Positions 17,059 to 22,552 of a stretch of 64,000 bases of DNA are shown one piece after another. The translations under genes and the position numbers were made by a program. The DNA comes from Blattabacterium cuenoti. GTDB taxonomy: Bacteria > Bacteroidota > Bacteroidia > Flavobacteriales > Blattabacteriaceae. How positions within the stretch are numbered: position 1 is the stretch's first letter; each line of letters opens with the position of its first letter. The notes under the pieces are model-generated. The model was given only the letters and a program-made list of their open reading frames with translations, was not told the DNA's origin and ran no database searches. The stretch lies in NCBI RefSeq assembly GCF_014251695.1, contig NZ_CP059195.1:418031-482030 (forward strand), read 5' to 3'.

Positions 17059-17078
17059 ATGACATAATGACATTATGT
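17059..17078 (+). promoter_or_regulatory. dyad/direct-repeat motif in the miaB leader (copy A)
   Basis: ATGACATAATGACATT at 17059-17074 shares 14 of 16 bases with ATGTCATTATGACATT at 20468-20483 upstream of groES. Here the half-site ATGACAT occurs twice in direct order. ACATAATG and CATTATGT also form an 8-bp inverted repeat around position 17070. It may be a transcription-factor site, though a weak RNA hairpin is an alternative. Confidence 0.4.
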
Positions 17079-17102
17079 ATTTTTATTGTATATATTATGC
17101 AT

Positions 17103-18446
17103 ATGAAAAATAAAAGTTTTTATATTGAAAATTATGGTTGTCAAATGAATATAGCAGATAGTGATATTATCACTTATATTTTATTGAATAATGGTTTTAT
17201 TTTATCTGAAAATTTAAATCAAGCAAACATAATTTTGATAAACGCATGTTCTATTCGACAAAACGCTGAATTTACCTTAAAAAAAAGATTAGAACAATTA
17301 AAATTTATTAAAAAAAGAAGACCAATTTGGATTGGAATTGTAGGATGTTTTTCAAAAGAAATAAAAAAATTTTTTTTACAAAAAAAAATAGTAGATTTTT
17401 TTGTCAATCCAGATTCTTATAGAGAAATACCTAATTTTATTTATTATTCTATAATGGGGAAACAATATCCTTATGTTGCTAGAAAAAACAATGAAACTTA
17501 TGCGGATATAAGTTTTGTAAAAAAAATAAACCCAAATCATAAAAAAATAACAACTTTTTTAAGTATAACAAGAGGTTGTAATAACATGTGCACATTTTGT
17601 ATAGTCCCTTTTACCAGAGGAAGAGAAAGAAGTAGCGATCCATATTATATTATTGAGGAATGTAAACGTTTATATCATAATGGATTTAAAGAAATCACTC
17701 TTTTAGGACAAAATGTAGATTCTTATCTATGGATAGGAACAGATATGATGAAAAAAAATATTGTAGATTTTTCTAAACTTTTAGATCTTATAGCTAAAGA
17801 AATCCCTTTTATGAGAATTAGATTTTCTACATCAAACCCTCATGATATGTCTAATGAAGTCCTAAAAGTAATTTCTAAACATAGAAATATTTGCAAACAT
17901 ATTCATTTACCTGTACAATCTGGAAGTAATAAAATGCTAAAATTAATGAATAGAAAATATACACGGGAAAAATATCTTTTGTTGGTAAAAAAAATTAAAA
18001 GTATTATTCCAGAATGTTCTATTTCTCATGATATTATGACTGGATTTTGTAATGAAAATGAAGAAGATCATCAGAAAACTATAAGTTTAATGAATGAAAT
18101 CAAATATAATTATGGATATATGTTTTCTTATTCTCCTAGACCTGGAACTTATGCATATAGAAAATTAAAGGATAATGTTCCTGTCAATATCAAAAAAAGA
18201 CGATTAAAAGAAATTATTGATTTACAAAGAAATCATTCATTGTATAGAATGCAAGAGCATTTAGATAAAATAGAAGAAGTTTTAATAGAAGGAGAATCAA
18301 AAAAAAATAATCAATATTGGTATGGAAGAAATACACAAAATATAATAGTAGTTTTTCCTAAAAAATACTTAAATATTGGGGATTTAGTTTATGTAAAAAT
18401 AATAGATACCACATCTGCAACTTTAATAGGAAAACATTGCAAATGA
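17103..18446 (+). CDS. miaB: tRNA-2-methylthio-N6-dimethylallyladenosine synthase MiaB
   Basis: MiaB is a radical-SAM enzyme adding the methylthio group to i6A37 of tRNAs reading UNN codons. MiaA, which makes i6A, is also in this window. From ATG 17103 the product is 447 residues. The N-terminal iron-sulfur Cys residues lie in ENYGCQMN, NACSIRQNAE and VGCFSK. The radical SAM triad is in RGCNNMCTFCIVPF (Cys159, 163, 166), followed by LLGQNVDSY and a C-terminal TRAM domain. An in-frame ATG at 17097 is nearly as likely. Starts further upstream would run through the shared dyad. Confidence 0.96.
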   Translation: MKNKSFYIENYGCQMNIADSDIITYILLNNGFILSENLNQANIILINACSIRQNAEFTLKKRLEQLKFIKKRRPIWIGIVGCFSKEIKKFFLQKKIVDFFVNPDSYREIPNFIYYSIMGKQYPYVARKNNETYADISFVKKINPNHKKITTFLSITRGCNNMCTFCIVPFTRGRERSSDPYYIIEECKRLYHNGFKEITLLGQNVDSYLWIGTDMMKKNIVDFSKLLDLIAKEIPFMRIRFSTSNPHDMSNEVLKVISKHRNICKHIHLPVQSGSNKMLKLMNRKYTREKYLLLVKKIKSIIPECSISHDIMTGFCNENEEDHQKTISLMNEIKYNYGYMFSYSPRPGTYAYRKLKDNVPVNIKKRRLKEIIDLQRNHSLYRMQEHLDKIEEVLIEGESKKNNQYWYGRNTQNIIVVFPKKYLNIGDLVYVKIIDTTSATLIGKHCK

Positions 18447-18478: not shown

Positions 18479-19723
18479 ATGGAATCCGTCTTTATCCAAA
18501 ATATAAAACAAAAATTTGGAATCATTGGATATGATTATGCTTTACATAGAGCTTTAGAAAAAGCCATACAAGTTGCCCCTACTGATATTTCTGTATTAGT
18601 TCTTGGAGAAAGTGGAGTAGGGAAAGAATTTATACCAAAAATAATTCATCAATATTCTTCTCGAAAACATCATGCTTATATTGCAGTAAATTGTGGGGCT
18701 ATTCCAGAAGGAACTATTGATAGTGAACTATTCGGACATGAAAAAGGGTCTTTTACAGGAGCTACAAGCATGCGAAAAGGTTATTTTGAAGGAACAAATG
18801 GAGGAACTCTATTTTTAGATGAAGTAGGAGAGCTTCCTTTAACTACGCAAGTACGTCTTCTTAGAATATTGGAATCTGGAGAATTTATTAAAGTAGGATC
18901 TTCTAAAATTCAAAAAACTAATATACGTATTGTTGCTGCTACTAATTTGAACATGATAGAATCTGTCCAAAAAGGAAAATTCAGAGAAGATTTGTATTAT
19001 CGTCTAAATACAGTACAAATTAATGTTCCACCTTTGCGTTTTCGTAAAAATGATATTAAATTTTTATTTAAAAAATTTTCTAATGATTTTGCGGAAAAAT
19101 ATCATATGCCTCCAGTAACACTTACGGAAGAATCTTTAAAATATTTAAAAGATTATTCTTGGCCTGGAAACATAAGACAATTAAAAAATTTAATAGAACA
19201 AATTTCTGTAGTGGAAACTAAACGTGAAATTTCTGTAGAAAAATTTAAAGAATATATTCCAGAAAATATTCCATCAATATCTTTTTCTAATCATAATGGA
19301 ATAGAAACATCTTTTCATGATAGGGAAAGAGATTTTCTTTATAAAATTTTGTTTGATATGAAAAAAAATTTGAATGATTTAAAAAATATTACTTTTCAAT
19401 TAATTAAAAATAATTCTAATACTAGATTTATTGAAGAAAATCAACAACTTATGGAAAAAGTTTTTGGGAAAATGATTCATAATAGAGATGATTCAATATT
19501 TCAATTGGAAGATTCATCTAAATCTGATGAAGATTTAGATTATGAAGAAGTAGAAGAAGATTTATCCAAAAATGAGTTATCTTCTTTTTCTTTACAAAAA
19601 AAAGAAATAGAATTTATTCAAAAAGCTTTGAAAAAAAGTAATGGGAAAAGAAGAAAGGCTGCAAAAGAATTAGGAATTTCAGAAAGAACATTATATAGAA
19701 AAATTAAACAATATGGCTTATAA
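18479..19723 (+). CDS. sigma-54-dependent transcriptional activator (no receiver domain)
   Basis: The 414-residue protein has an AAA+ sigma-54 interaction domain starting almost at residue 1, so the usual receiver or sensor domain is absent. Walker A GESGVGKE is at 43-50. The sigma-54 contact loop reads GSFTGA at 90-95, where GAFTGA is usual, followed by GGTLFLDEVGELPL, RIVAATN, FREDLYYRLN and WPGNIRQLKNL. After an acidic linker rich in Asp and Glu, a Fis-type helix-turn-helix ends the protein (KRRKAAKELGISERTLYRKI). This protein would remodel RpoN holoenzyme at -24/-12 promoters. One candidate lies at groES, 0.8 kb downstream. RpoN itself is not in the window. Confidence 0.95.
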   Translation: MESVFIQNIKQKFGIIGYDYALHRALEKAIQVAPTDISVLVLGESGVGKEFIPKIIHQYSSRKHHAYIAVNCGAIPEGTIDSELFGHEKGSFTGATSMRKGYFEGTNGGTLFLDEVGELPLTTQVRLLRILESGEFIKVGSSKIQKTNIRIVAATNLNMIESVQKGKFREDLYYRLNTVQINVPPLRFRKNDIKFLFKKFSNDFAEKYHMPPVTLTEESLKYLKDYSWPGNIRQLKNLIEQISVVETKREISVEKFKEYIPENIPSISFSNHNGIETSFHDRERDFLYKILFDMKKNLNDLKNITFQLIKNNSNTRFIEENQQLMEKVFGKMIHNRDDSIFQLEDSSKSDEDLDYEEVEEDLSKNELSSFSLQKKEIEFIQKALKKSNGKRRKAAKELGISERTLYRKIKQYGL

Positions 19724-20207
19724 AAAAATTTTTTTTATTTTCACTTTCATATTTTTTATGATAGTTAGTTGTAATCATTCATCTATTTCATCATTTTTTG
19801 ATTTAAAAAAAACAATAGAAATAGGAGAAATTACAGAAGTAGTTAATATACCTGGAAGATCTATTTCCTTTGATTTTAAAAGAAGTATTGAAAATTATAT
19901 AATGAAACATAATCCTTCTAATTTAGTATTAAAAAATGGAGATGTTGTTTTAGAAGGTGTATTTTTAAGTTACGCAATTATTCCATTGGATAATTATCCG
20001 TTGAAAAAAATTAAAGTTACCGCAAAAATATCTTATCTAGATAAGATTGAACCAGAAAAAAATTGGGAAAAATGTTTTGTGGTATCGGAAGAATTTTATA
20101 ATAATAAGAAAAATCTTTTTTCAAAAGAAATTATTGATAAAATTATAGAAAAGTTGACAATTGAGGTATTTCGTAAAATATTTAATAATTCCAATAATGA
20201 TTGGTAA
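19713..20207 (+). CDS. lptE: LPS-assembly lipoprotein LptE-like
   Basis: The 164-residue product has a lipoprotein signal peptide ending in FFMIVSC, with the lipidated Cys at residue 20. The mature part has the pattern of Bacteroidota LptE: VNIPGRSISFDFKRSIENYI, then NLVLKNGDVVLEGVFLSYAIIP and a beta-rich stretch on KKIKVTAKISY. LptE plugs the LptD translocon that delivers LPS to the outer surface. The gene order activator-lptE-secG-groES also occurs in flavobacteria, which supports the call. It overlaps the activator gene by 11 bases. Sequence divergence is high, so the name rests partly on context. Confidence 0.72.
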   Translation: MAYKKIFFIFTFIFFMIVSCNHSSISSFFDLKKTIEIGEITEVVNIPGRSISFDFKRSIENYIMKHNPSNLVLKNGDVVLEGVFLSYAIIPLDNYPLKKIKVTAKISYLDKIEPEKNWEKCFVVSEEFYNNKKNLFSKEIIDKIIEKLTIEVFRKIFNNSNNDW

Positions 20208-20223
20208 ATAAAATAATAAATAA

Positions 20224-20466
20224 ATGGAAAATACATCCATAATTATATTTGGTTTTTTTATTATTGTAATATGTCTTTTACTTATGTTGGTAATATTAAT
20301 ACAAAATCCTAAAAAAGAAAGCATTCATCAATCTTTTATGGAAAAAAATTTTAGATTTTTTGGAATTAAAAGAACAAATACATTTTTGGAGAATATTACT
20401 TGGTTTTTATCCATTATTATATTTTTTTTAACTCTATTTTTCAATTTTTTACTAAAATCAAAATAA
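20224..20466 (+). CDS. secG: preprotein translocase subunit SecG
   Basis: SecG is the small auxiliary subunit of the SecYEG channel. The 80-residue protein has two hydrophobic segments (about 6-26 and 57-77) separated by a polar loop. The first helix ends LVILIQNPKKES, the typical SecG signature. The glycine-rich stretch usual in SecG is poor here, and the helix packing residues are replaced by Phe and Lys in line with A+T pressure. It lies between lptE and groES. Confidence 0.85.
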   Translation: MENTSIIIFGFFIIVICLLLMLVILIQNPKKESIHQSFMEKNFRFFGIKRTNTFLENITWFLSIIIFFLTLFFNFLLKSK

Positions 20467-20467
20467 T

Positions 20468-20483
20468 ATGTCATTATGACATT
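20468..20483 (+). promoter_or_regulatory. perfect 15-bp dyad upstream of groESL (copy B)
   Basis: ATGTCAT, one T, then ATGACAT forms a perfect inverted repeat beginning two bases after the secG stop and about 110 bases before the groES start. Fourteen of 16 bases match the site in the miaB leader. It sits about 40-55 bases upstream of the -24 element at 20523-20540, within the range where activators of sigma-54 holoenzyme bind. A secG 3' hairpin is an alternative, although no T run follows. Confidence 0.48.
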
Positions 20484-20522
20484 TAATATTGCTTAAATGA
20501 AAAAAAATTTGAATTTTTTTAT

Positions 20523-20540
20523 TTGGCATGTTTTTGGCTT
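20523..20540 (+). promoter_or_regulatory. sigma-54-like -24/-12 promoter for groESL
   Basis: TTGGCATGTTTTTGGCTT fits the RpoN consensus TGGCACG-N4-TTGC at 10 of the 11 fixed positions apart from one extra mismatch (C to T and T to G). The invariant GG at 20525-20526 and GC at 20537-20538 have the required 12-base register. Transcription would start near 20550, about 29 bases before groES. No CIRCE element (HrcA operator) and no TAnnTTTG box were seen in the gap, and a sigma-54 activator is encoded just upstream. Confidence 0.55.
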
Positions 20541-20578
20541 TGAACGATTAGAACTGTTAACCTTAAAATTATTTTAAT

Positions 20579-20857
20579 ATGGTGGAAGTAAAGATTAAAC
20601 CTTTGGCAGATCGTGTTCTTGTGCAACCTGATCCTGCTGAAACAAAAACCGCTTCAGGTATTATTATTCCTGATACAGCAAAAGAAAAACCACAAAAAGG
20701 GACTATAATAGCAGTAGGTCAAGGAAAAAAAGATGAACCTATGAATCTAAAAGAAGGGGATCGAGTTTTGTACGGTAAATATTCTGGAACAGAATTAAAA
20801 TGGGAAGGAGAAGAATATCTTATTATGCGAGAATCTGATGTTATAGCTATCATATGA
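20579..20857 (+). CDS. groES: co-chaperonin GroES
   Basis: GroES caps the GroEL ring during protein folding. The 92-residue protein has [34 protein letters not shown], which includes the mobile loop binding GroEL, then [29 protein letters not shown]. All conserved elements are present. It precedes groEL by 51 bases in a normal operon. The spacer before it contains a sigma-54-like promoter and a dyad. Confidence 0.98.

Positions 20858-20902: not shown

Positions 20903-22552
<1,650 letters not shown>

Follow-up and report, generated by a model that had tools for sequence, protein, structure and literature searches.

Sigma-54 control of chaperone genes in described systems

PspF of Escherichia coli is an orphan bEBP that consists of an AAA+ domain and a Fis-type helix-turn-helix (HTH), without an N-terminal domain. 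The groESL3 operon of Bradyrhizobium, one of several groESL copies, is linked to nitrogen fixation and is controlled by NifA, that is, by sigma-54 together with a bEBP. The locus described here, from Blattabacterium cuenoti, can be compared with both. Its sigma-54 activator resembles PspF in having AAA+ and Fis-type HTH domains but no sensory domain, and the self-repression via its own sites that we propose below would be a further likeness. However, it does not belong to the PspF family, as its score against the PspF model TIGR02974 (273.6 bits) lies below the cut-off of 443.55; it also differs in carrying about 100 residues, including a conserved helix, between the AAA+ lid and the HTH, and in its inferred targets, which are chaperone genes. 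With Bradyrhizobium groESL3 the locus has sigma-54 and a bEBP in common, but groESL is present in a single copy in Blattabacterium, and the activator is a different, dedicated one.

In Flavobacterium psychrophilum, sigma-54 starts (motif SM4) have been mapped at groESL, dnaK, grpE-dnaJ, htpG, lon and clpB, in a regulon that also covers gliding genes (PMC9723704). In the available portions of that report, three possible activators are mentioned and none is assigned, no binding site is given, and the activator-lptE pair has its own start, of the non-sigma-54 type SM5 (PMC9723704). The idea of a sigma-54 promoter for groESL is thus not itself new, and the view of the initial annotation of this DNA, that such control would be unusual, does not hold for this phylum, given the mapped F. 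psychrophilum starts. The SM4 regulon shares groESL and grpE-dnaJ as targets with Blattabacterium but is much larger, whereas Blattabacterium is left with only three of the dyads introduced below.

A second study, using in silico promoter matrices, predicted GroEL, GroES, GrpE, DnaJ and DnaK as sigma-54 targets in Bacteroidota, and an enrichment of chaperones in the sigma-54 regulons of Bacteroidota and Planctomycetota; its accessible sections mention neither a cognate activator nor an upstream site where the chaperone genes are concerned (PMC12316311). Our literature search found no report of the cognate activator, of its site, of a three-site regulon with probable autorepression, or of a link to the retention of rpoN.

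A sigma-54-type element in front of groESL

The window that we analysed is a 64-kb stretch (G000:C1:418031-482030) of a genome of 630,624 bases, whose size and genes agree with Blattabacterium, a flavobacterial symbiont of cockroaches. It contains, in this order, miaB, a sigma-54 activator gene, an lptE-like gene, secG, groES and groEL. The features are as follows, in window positions:

17067-18446, + strand: miaB, tRNA methylthiotransferase (Pfam UPF0004, Radical_SAM, TRAM)
18479-19723, + strand: sigma-54 activator (bEBP) with AAA+ domain, GSFTGA loop, lid, linker and Fis-type HTH
19713-20207, + strand: probable lptE, lipoprotein-like, named from its position
20224-20466, + strand: secG (Pfam PF03840, TIGR00810)
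20524-20538, + strand: sigma-54 type -24/-12 promoter element of groESL, TGGCATGTTTTTGGC, assigned from sequence and conservation
20550, + strand: predicted transcription start, placed 12 nt beyond the -12 C by the sigma-54 register
20579-20857, + strand: groES
20909-22552, + strand: groEL (TIGR02348)

The probable lptE gene has no Pfam or NCBIfam match; in F. psychrophilum, an activator and LptE are likewise listed as a pair. The listed start of miaB, the first ATG at 17067, overlaps one of the dyads, so the real start is probably 17103.

Within TGGCATGTTTTTGGC, GG (20525-20526) and GC (20537-20538) are spaced as GG-N10-GC, which is the -24/-12 register, and eight of the ten specified positions of TGGCAC-N5-TTGC agree. 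The element lies 55 bp upstream of the groES ATG at 20579, and transcription from 20550 would produce a leader of 29 nt. By chance, about 1.6% of 112-nt spacers matched in composition would hold an equally good site, and the pattern TGGCAYR-N6-GC has two matches genome-wide (the second within 16S rRNA), a count that is not above that of the reversed control. The single sequence therefore gives modest evidence only. A perfect-looking sigma-54 site found in most congeners, TGGCACGGAGTTTGC at G000:C1:357104, was rejected because it sits in 16S rRNA.

There is no exact match to TAnnTTTG on the + strand between 20252 and 20578, the CIRCE/HrcA operator TTAGCACTC-N9-GAGTGCTAA is absent from the 64-kb window with up to three mismatches allowed, and a search of the secG-groES interval for a GC-stem terminator gave none. 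The initial annotation had reported a sigma-54-type element with GG and GC in the proper register before groESL, and neither a TAnnTTTG box nor an HrcA site; both observations stand.

The spacer also contains an inverted repeat composed only of A and T, TAAATGAAAAAA ... TTTTTTTATTTG (20494-20525), which overlaps the -24 element. This repeat is perfect in many congeners, and both arms are changed in a few (L091, L096, L104). The corresponding hairpin might terminate transcription of the secG operon, and could also be noise of base composition.

Conservation of the element and its correlation with rpoN

All 49 Blattabacterium genomes have groES, and the GG and GC of the element are kept in every one of them, so that the comparison of relatives proposed in the initial annotation came out in its favour. 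All 15 bases are identical in 46 of the 49, while the spacer is variable on both sides of the element. This conservation places the groES element far beyond chance. In G009 the site seemed to have been lost, a reading that we rejected: both the site and the dyad are undamaged, some 196 bp upstream of groES, and the added distance is due to an inserted A/T-rich segment of about 140 bp (L163, G009:C1:415800-416400). The smallest genome, G015 (511 kb; L164/L129), has a degraded site, TGGTATGTTATTAGC, and has lost the dyad, while rpoN and the activator remain; its chaperone regulon is possibly in decay.

Seventeen other symbionts of the family have groES, six with rpoN and eleven without. The element is recognisable in four of the six rpoN-containing symbionts and in none of the eleven that lack rpoN (Fisher p = 0.006 by genome); counted by genus, the correlation is 4/6 versus 0/3 (p = 0.12). 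Several rpoN-less genomes have a miaB-like reading frame directly upstream of groES, so that the activator no longer occupies this position. Two symbionts, G066 (L201) and G067 (L202), have kept rpoN and the activator but show no recognisable site before groES.

One alternative is that groESL is transcribed mainly via the primary sigma factor, from a degenerate TAnnTTTG box or by read-through from secG, with the likeness to a -24/-12 promoter being inherited or incidental. In its favour, G066, G067 and the symbionts that lack rpoN have to express groESL in some way that does not need the site. The absence of a GC-rich terminator from the secG-groES interval fits read-through, and TGGCTTTG at 20535-20542, overlapping the -12 element, is one mismatch away from TAnnTTTG. 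However, the spacer has no exact TAnnTTTG, and the TTTG that follows the -12 GC is unconserved across the genus, unlike the invariant GG and GC. In addition, the G009 site has survived despite its upstream displacement by the insertion, the site tracks rpoN, and in F. psychrophilum transcription of groESL has been mapped to a sigma-54 start (PMC9723704). We therefore regard transcription mainly through the primary sigma factor as improbable, and a sigma-54 promoter as the better reading of the element. A weak sigma-A promoter, or some transcription running on from secG, may still play a part.

RpoN, the probable activator and its candidate sites

Both proteins that such a promoter calls for are encoded in the genome. 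RpoN is complete, with its activator-interacting, core-binding and DNA-binding domains (three Pfam families) and a TIGR02395 score above the cut-off, and rpoN is present in all 49 congeners; this, too, was a check named in the initial annotation, and it speaks for the sigma-54 reading. The receiver-less sigma-54 activator that had been noticed upstream of groESL (18479-19723) proved to be the only strong activator match in the genome. Exactly one strong PF00158 match per genome is found in each of the 49 congeners (E <= 1.3e-64); beyond these, PF00158 has only weak matches, with E about 1e-10 at best and most of them in frames some 690-930 residues long, which are presumably other AAA+ proteins.

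The AAA+ domain of the activator spans residues 15-181, with the Walker A sequence GESGVGKE and GSFTGA as its GAFTGA-type loop, and its nearest solved relatives are the AAA+ domains of NtrC-family proteins, FleQ, ZraR and PspF. There is no N-terminal sensory domain, and orthologous frames add at most eight residues before the AAA+ match. In an AlphaFold2 model, the AAA+ core and the HTH are confident, a helix at residues 279-310 is moderately so, and an acidic stretch has low confidence. This helix, located between the AAA+ lid and the HTH, has many invariant residues (E283, R284, L287, Y288, K289, L291, F292 and M294) across 32 Bacteroidota orthologues, and is a candidate for the point of signal input.

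Two dyads in the window are candidate sites for the activator, neither with an assigned strand:

17060-17072: TGACATAATGACA, a second dyad, which precedes the miaB-activator-lptE-secG operon and is proposed to serve autoregulation
20469-20481: candidate UAS, the dyad TGTCATTATGACA, separated by 42 bp from the -24 element of groES; retained in 48 of the 49 congeners

The whole genome contains just three dyads that fit TGNCA-N3-TGNCA, one each before groES, grpE-dnaJ and the miaB-activator operon, compared with one per strand in the reversed control. Dyads of the form TGNCATNATGNCA mostly number two to four per congener. The grpE-dnaJ dyad is identical to that of groES and lies 13 bp from a -24/-12 element, TGGCAAATCTTTTGC. 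In the 20 genomes examined, TGGCAAATMTTTTGC or a sequence very similar to it stands 11-13 bp beyond the grpE dyad, with a gap of 21 bp where two dyads overlap; one region in this comparison, L170, proved to be a different locus. The dyad at the front of the miaB-activator operon has no -24/-12 element but is followed, about 10 bp downstream, by a T-rich box resembling TAnnTTTA, so the likeliest action of a protein bound there would be repression of a sigma-A promoter.

Before groES, the distance from dyad to promoter falls into three classes (42-46, 32-35 or 12 bp), and on a tree of the secG-groES region the class has changed six times or more. The steps between classes are consistent with roughly one turn of the helix or several, in a phasing window that was chosen post hoc.

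The arrangement across Bacteroidota

Of 80 groES loci in other Bacteroidota, 75 have TGGCAY-N7-G no more than 150 bp from the gene, against about one expected from first-order Markov shuffles; a downstream control stretch also gave one. At positions -13/-12 these 75 loci have GA (46), GC (21) or GT (8). The invariance of the GC that the initial annotation had proposed is therefore true of Blattabacterium, but not of the phylum, where the -12 C is often A or T. A strict GG-N10-GC search was abandoned because the frequent A at -12 made it miss most free-living sites. Sigma-54 control of groESL appears to be the rule in Bacteroidota.

Activator orthologues of free-living Bacteroidota, likewise without a sensory domain, lie upstream of groES in 38 of 80 loci, and TGTCA/TGACA half-sites number 147 upstream of groES in the 75 loci, against 16 expected. 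A blind search of 18 Bacteroidota genomes for TGTCA-N3-TGNCA followed, after 12-42 bases, by TGGCAY returned eight places. Six of these precede chaperone genes, namely groES (three times) and genes that we take, from their translated sequences, to be dnaK, htpG and hsp20; the other two precede no evident gene. The chaperone hits are in line with the sigma-54 starts mapped in F. psychrophilum. Although matches were expected in all 18 free-living genomes, only six had any, because the spacing of the half-sites varies. In free-living flavobacteria, the half-site arrangement departs from the simple dyad. In some free-living loci, for example L015, L031 and L034, a hairpin after secG, AATGCCAGC...GCTGGCATTTTTT, holds TGCCA/TGGCA half-sites, so that terminator and activator site may overlap there.

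As dyad symmetry is typical of repressor operators too, the promoter could be of the sigma-54 type while a different regulator, such as one that represses chaperone genes, binds the dyad. We consider this improbable as well. The dyad is found at sigma-54 promoters and before the activator's own operon, its distance to the promoter shifts in steps of approximately one helical turn, and the neighbouring gene encodes the sole strong sigma-54 activator match in the genome. Moreover, the recognition region of this activator, LGISERTLYRKIK, is nearly invariant across Bacteroidota orthologues, in the same phylum in which the half-sites are widespread. The possibility that the element has no promoter function, being A/T-rich sequence of chance or merely structural origin, to which the 1.6% rate of equal matches in a single genome and the adjoining A/T hairpin might point, is negligible in view of the invariant GG and GC in 49 genomes and the 75 of 80 loci in other Bacteroidota.

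Proposed mechanism

We consider it very probable, judging from sequence comparisons, that groESL has its own sigma-54 promoter, opened by the neighbouring activator via TGTCATTATGACA, and that it belongs to a remnant of a Bacteroidota chaperone regulon. The comparisons show the elements and their conservation, the presence of rpoN and the activator, the co-occurrence with chaperone genes and the correlation with rpoN loss; binding, transcription, autorepression and the inducing signal are inferred. RNA polymerase with RpoN would occupy the -24/-12 element (20524-20538) as an inactive closed complex. The activator, encoded three genes upstream, would bind the dyad at 20469-20481 with its Fis-type HTH and form an AAA+ ring, which, using ATP and the GSFTGA loop, would open the complex, and transcription would begin near 20550. 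The grpE-dnaJ genes are probably switched on by the same activator through the identical dyad and their own -24/-12 element. At 17060-17072, where the dyad lies over a sigma-A-like promoter, the activator would probably repress its own operon. The Blattabacterium set would then be a shrunken remnant of the chaperone (heat-shock) regulon of Bacteroidota.

Implications for the retention of rpoN

That Blattabacterium, Walczuchella and Uzinura retain RpoN has been described as unusual among insect endosymbionts; in Walczuchella its retention was tentatively tied to nitrogen assimilation (PMC3971599). In Blattabacterium, recognisable activator dyads occur only at groESL, grpE-dnaJ and the activator operon, which points to chaperone control instead; this control may explain why Blattabacterium retains rpoN. 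More broadly, sigma-54 control of chaperones seems to be an ancient form of heat-shock regulation common to the entire phylum, for whose chaperone regulon a candidate activator and site are now named. It seems to us fairly likely that heat shock in Bacteroidota is governed by sigma-54 and one dedicated sensor-less activator, which is often encoded beside groESL, recognises TGTCA/TGACA and represses itself, and that in the reduced insect symbionts it is chaperone control, not nitrogen regulation, that retains rpoN.
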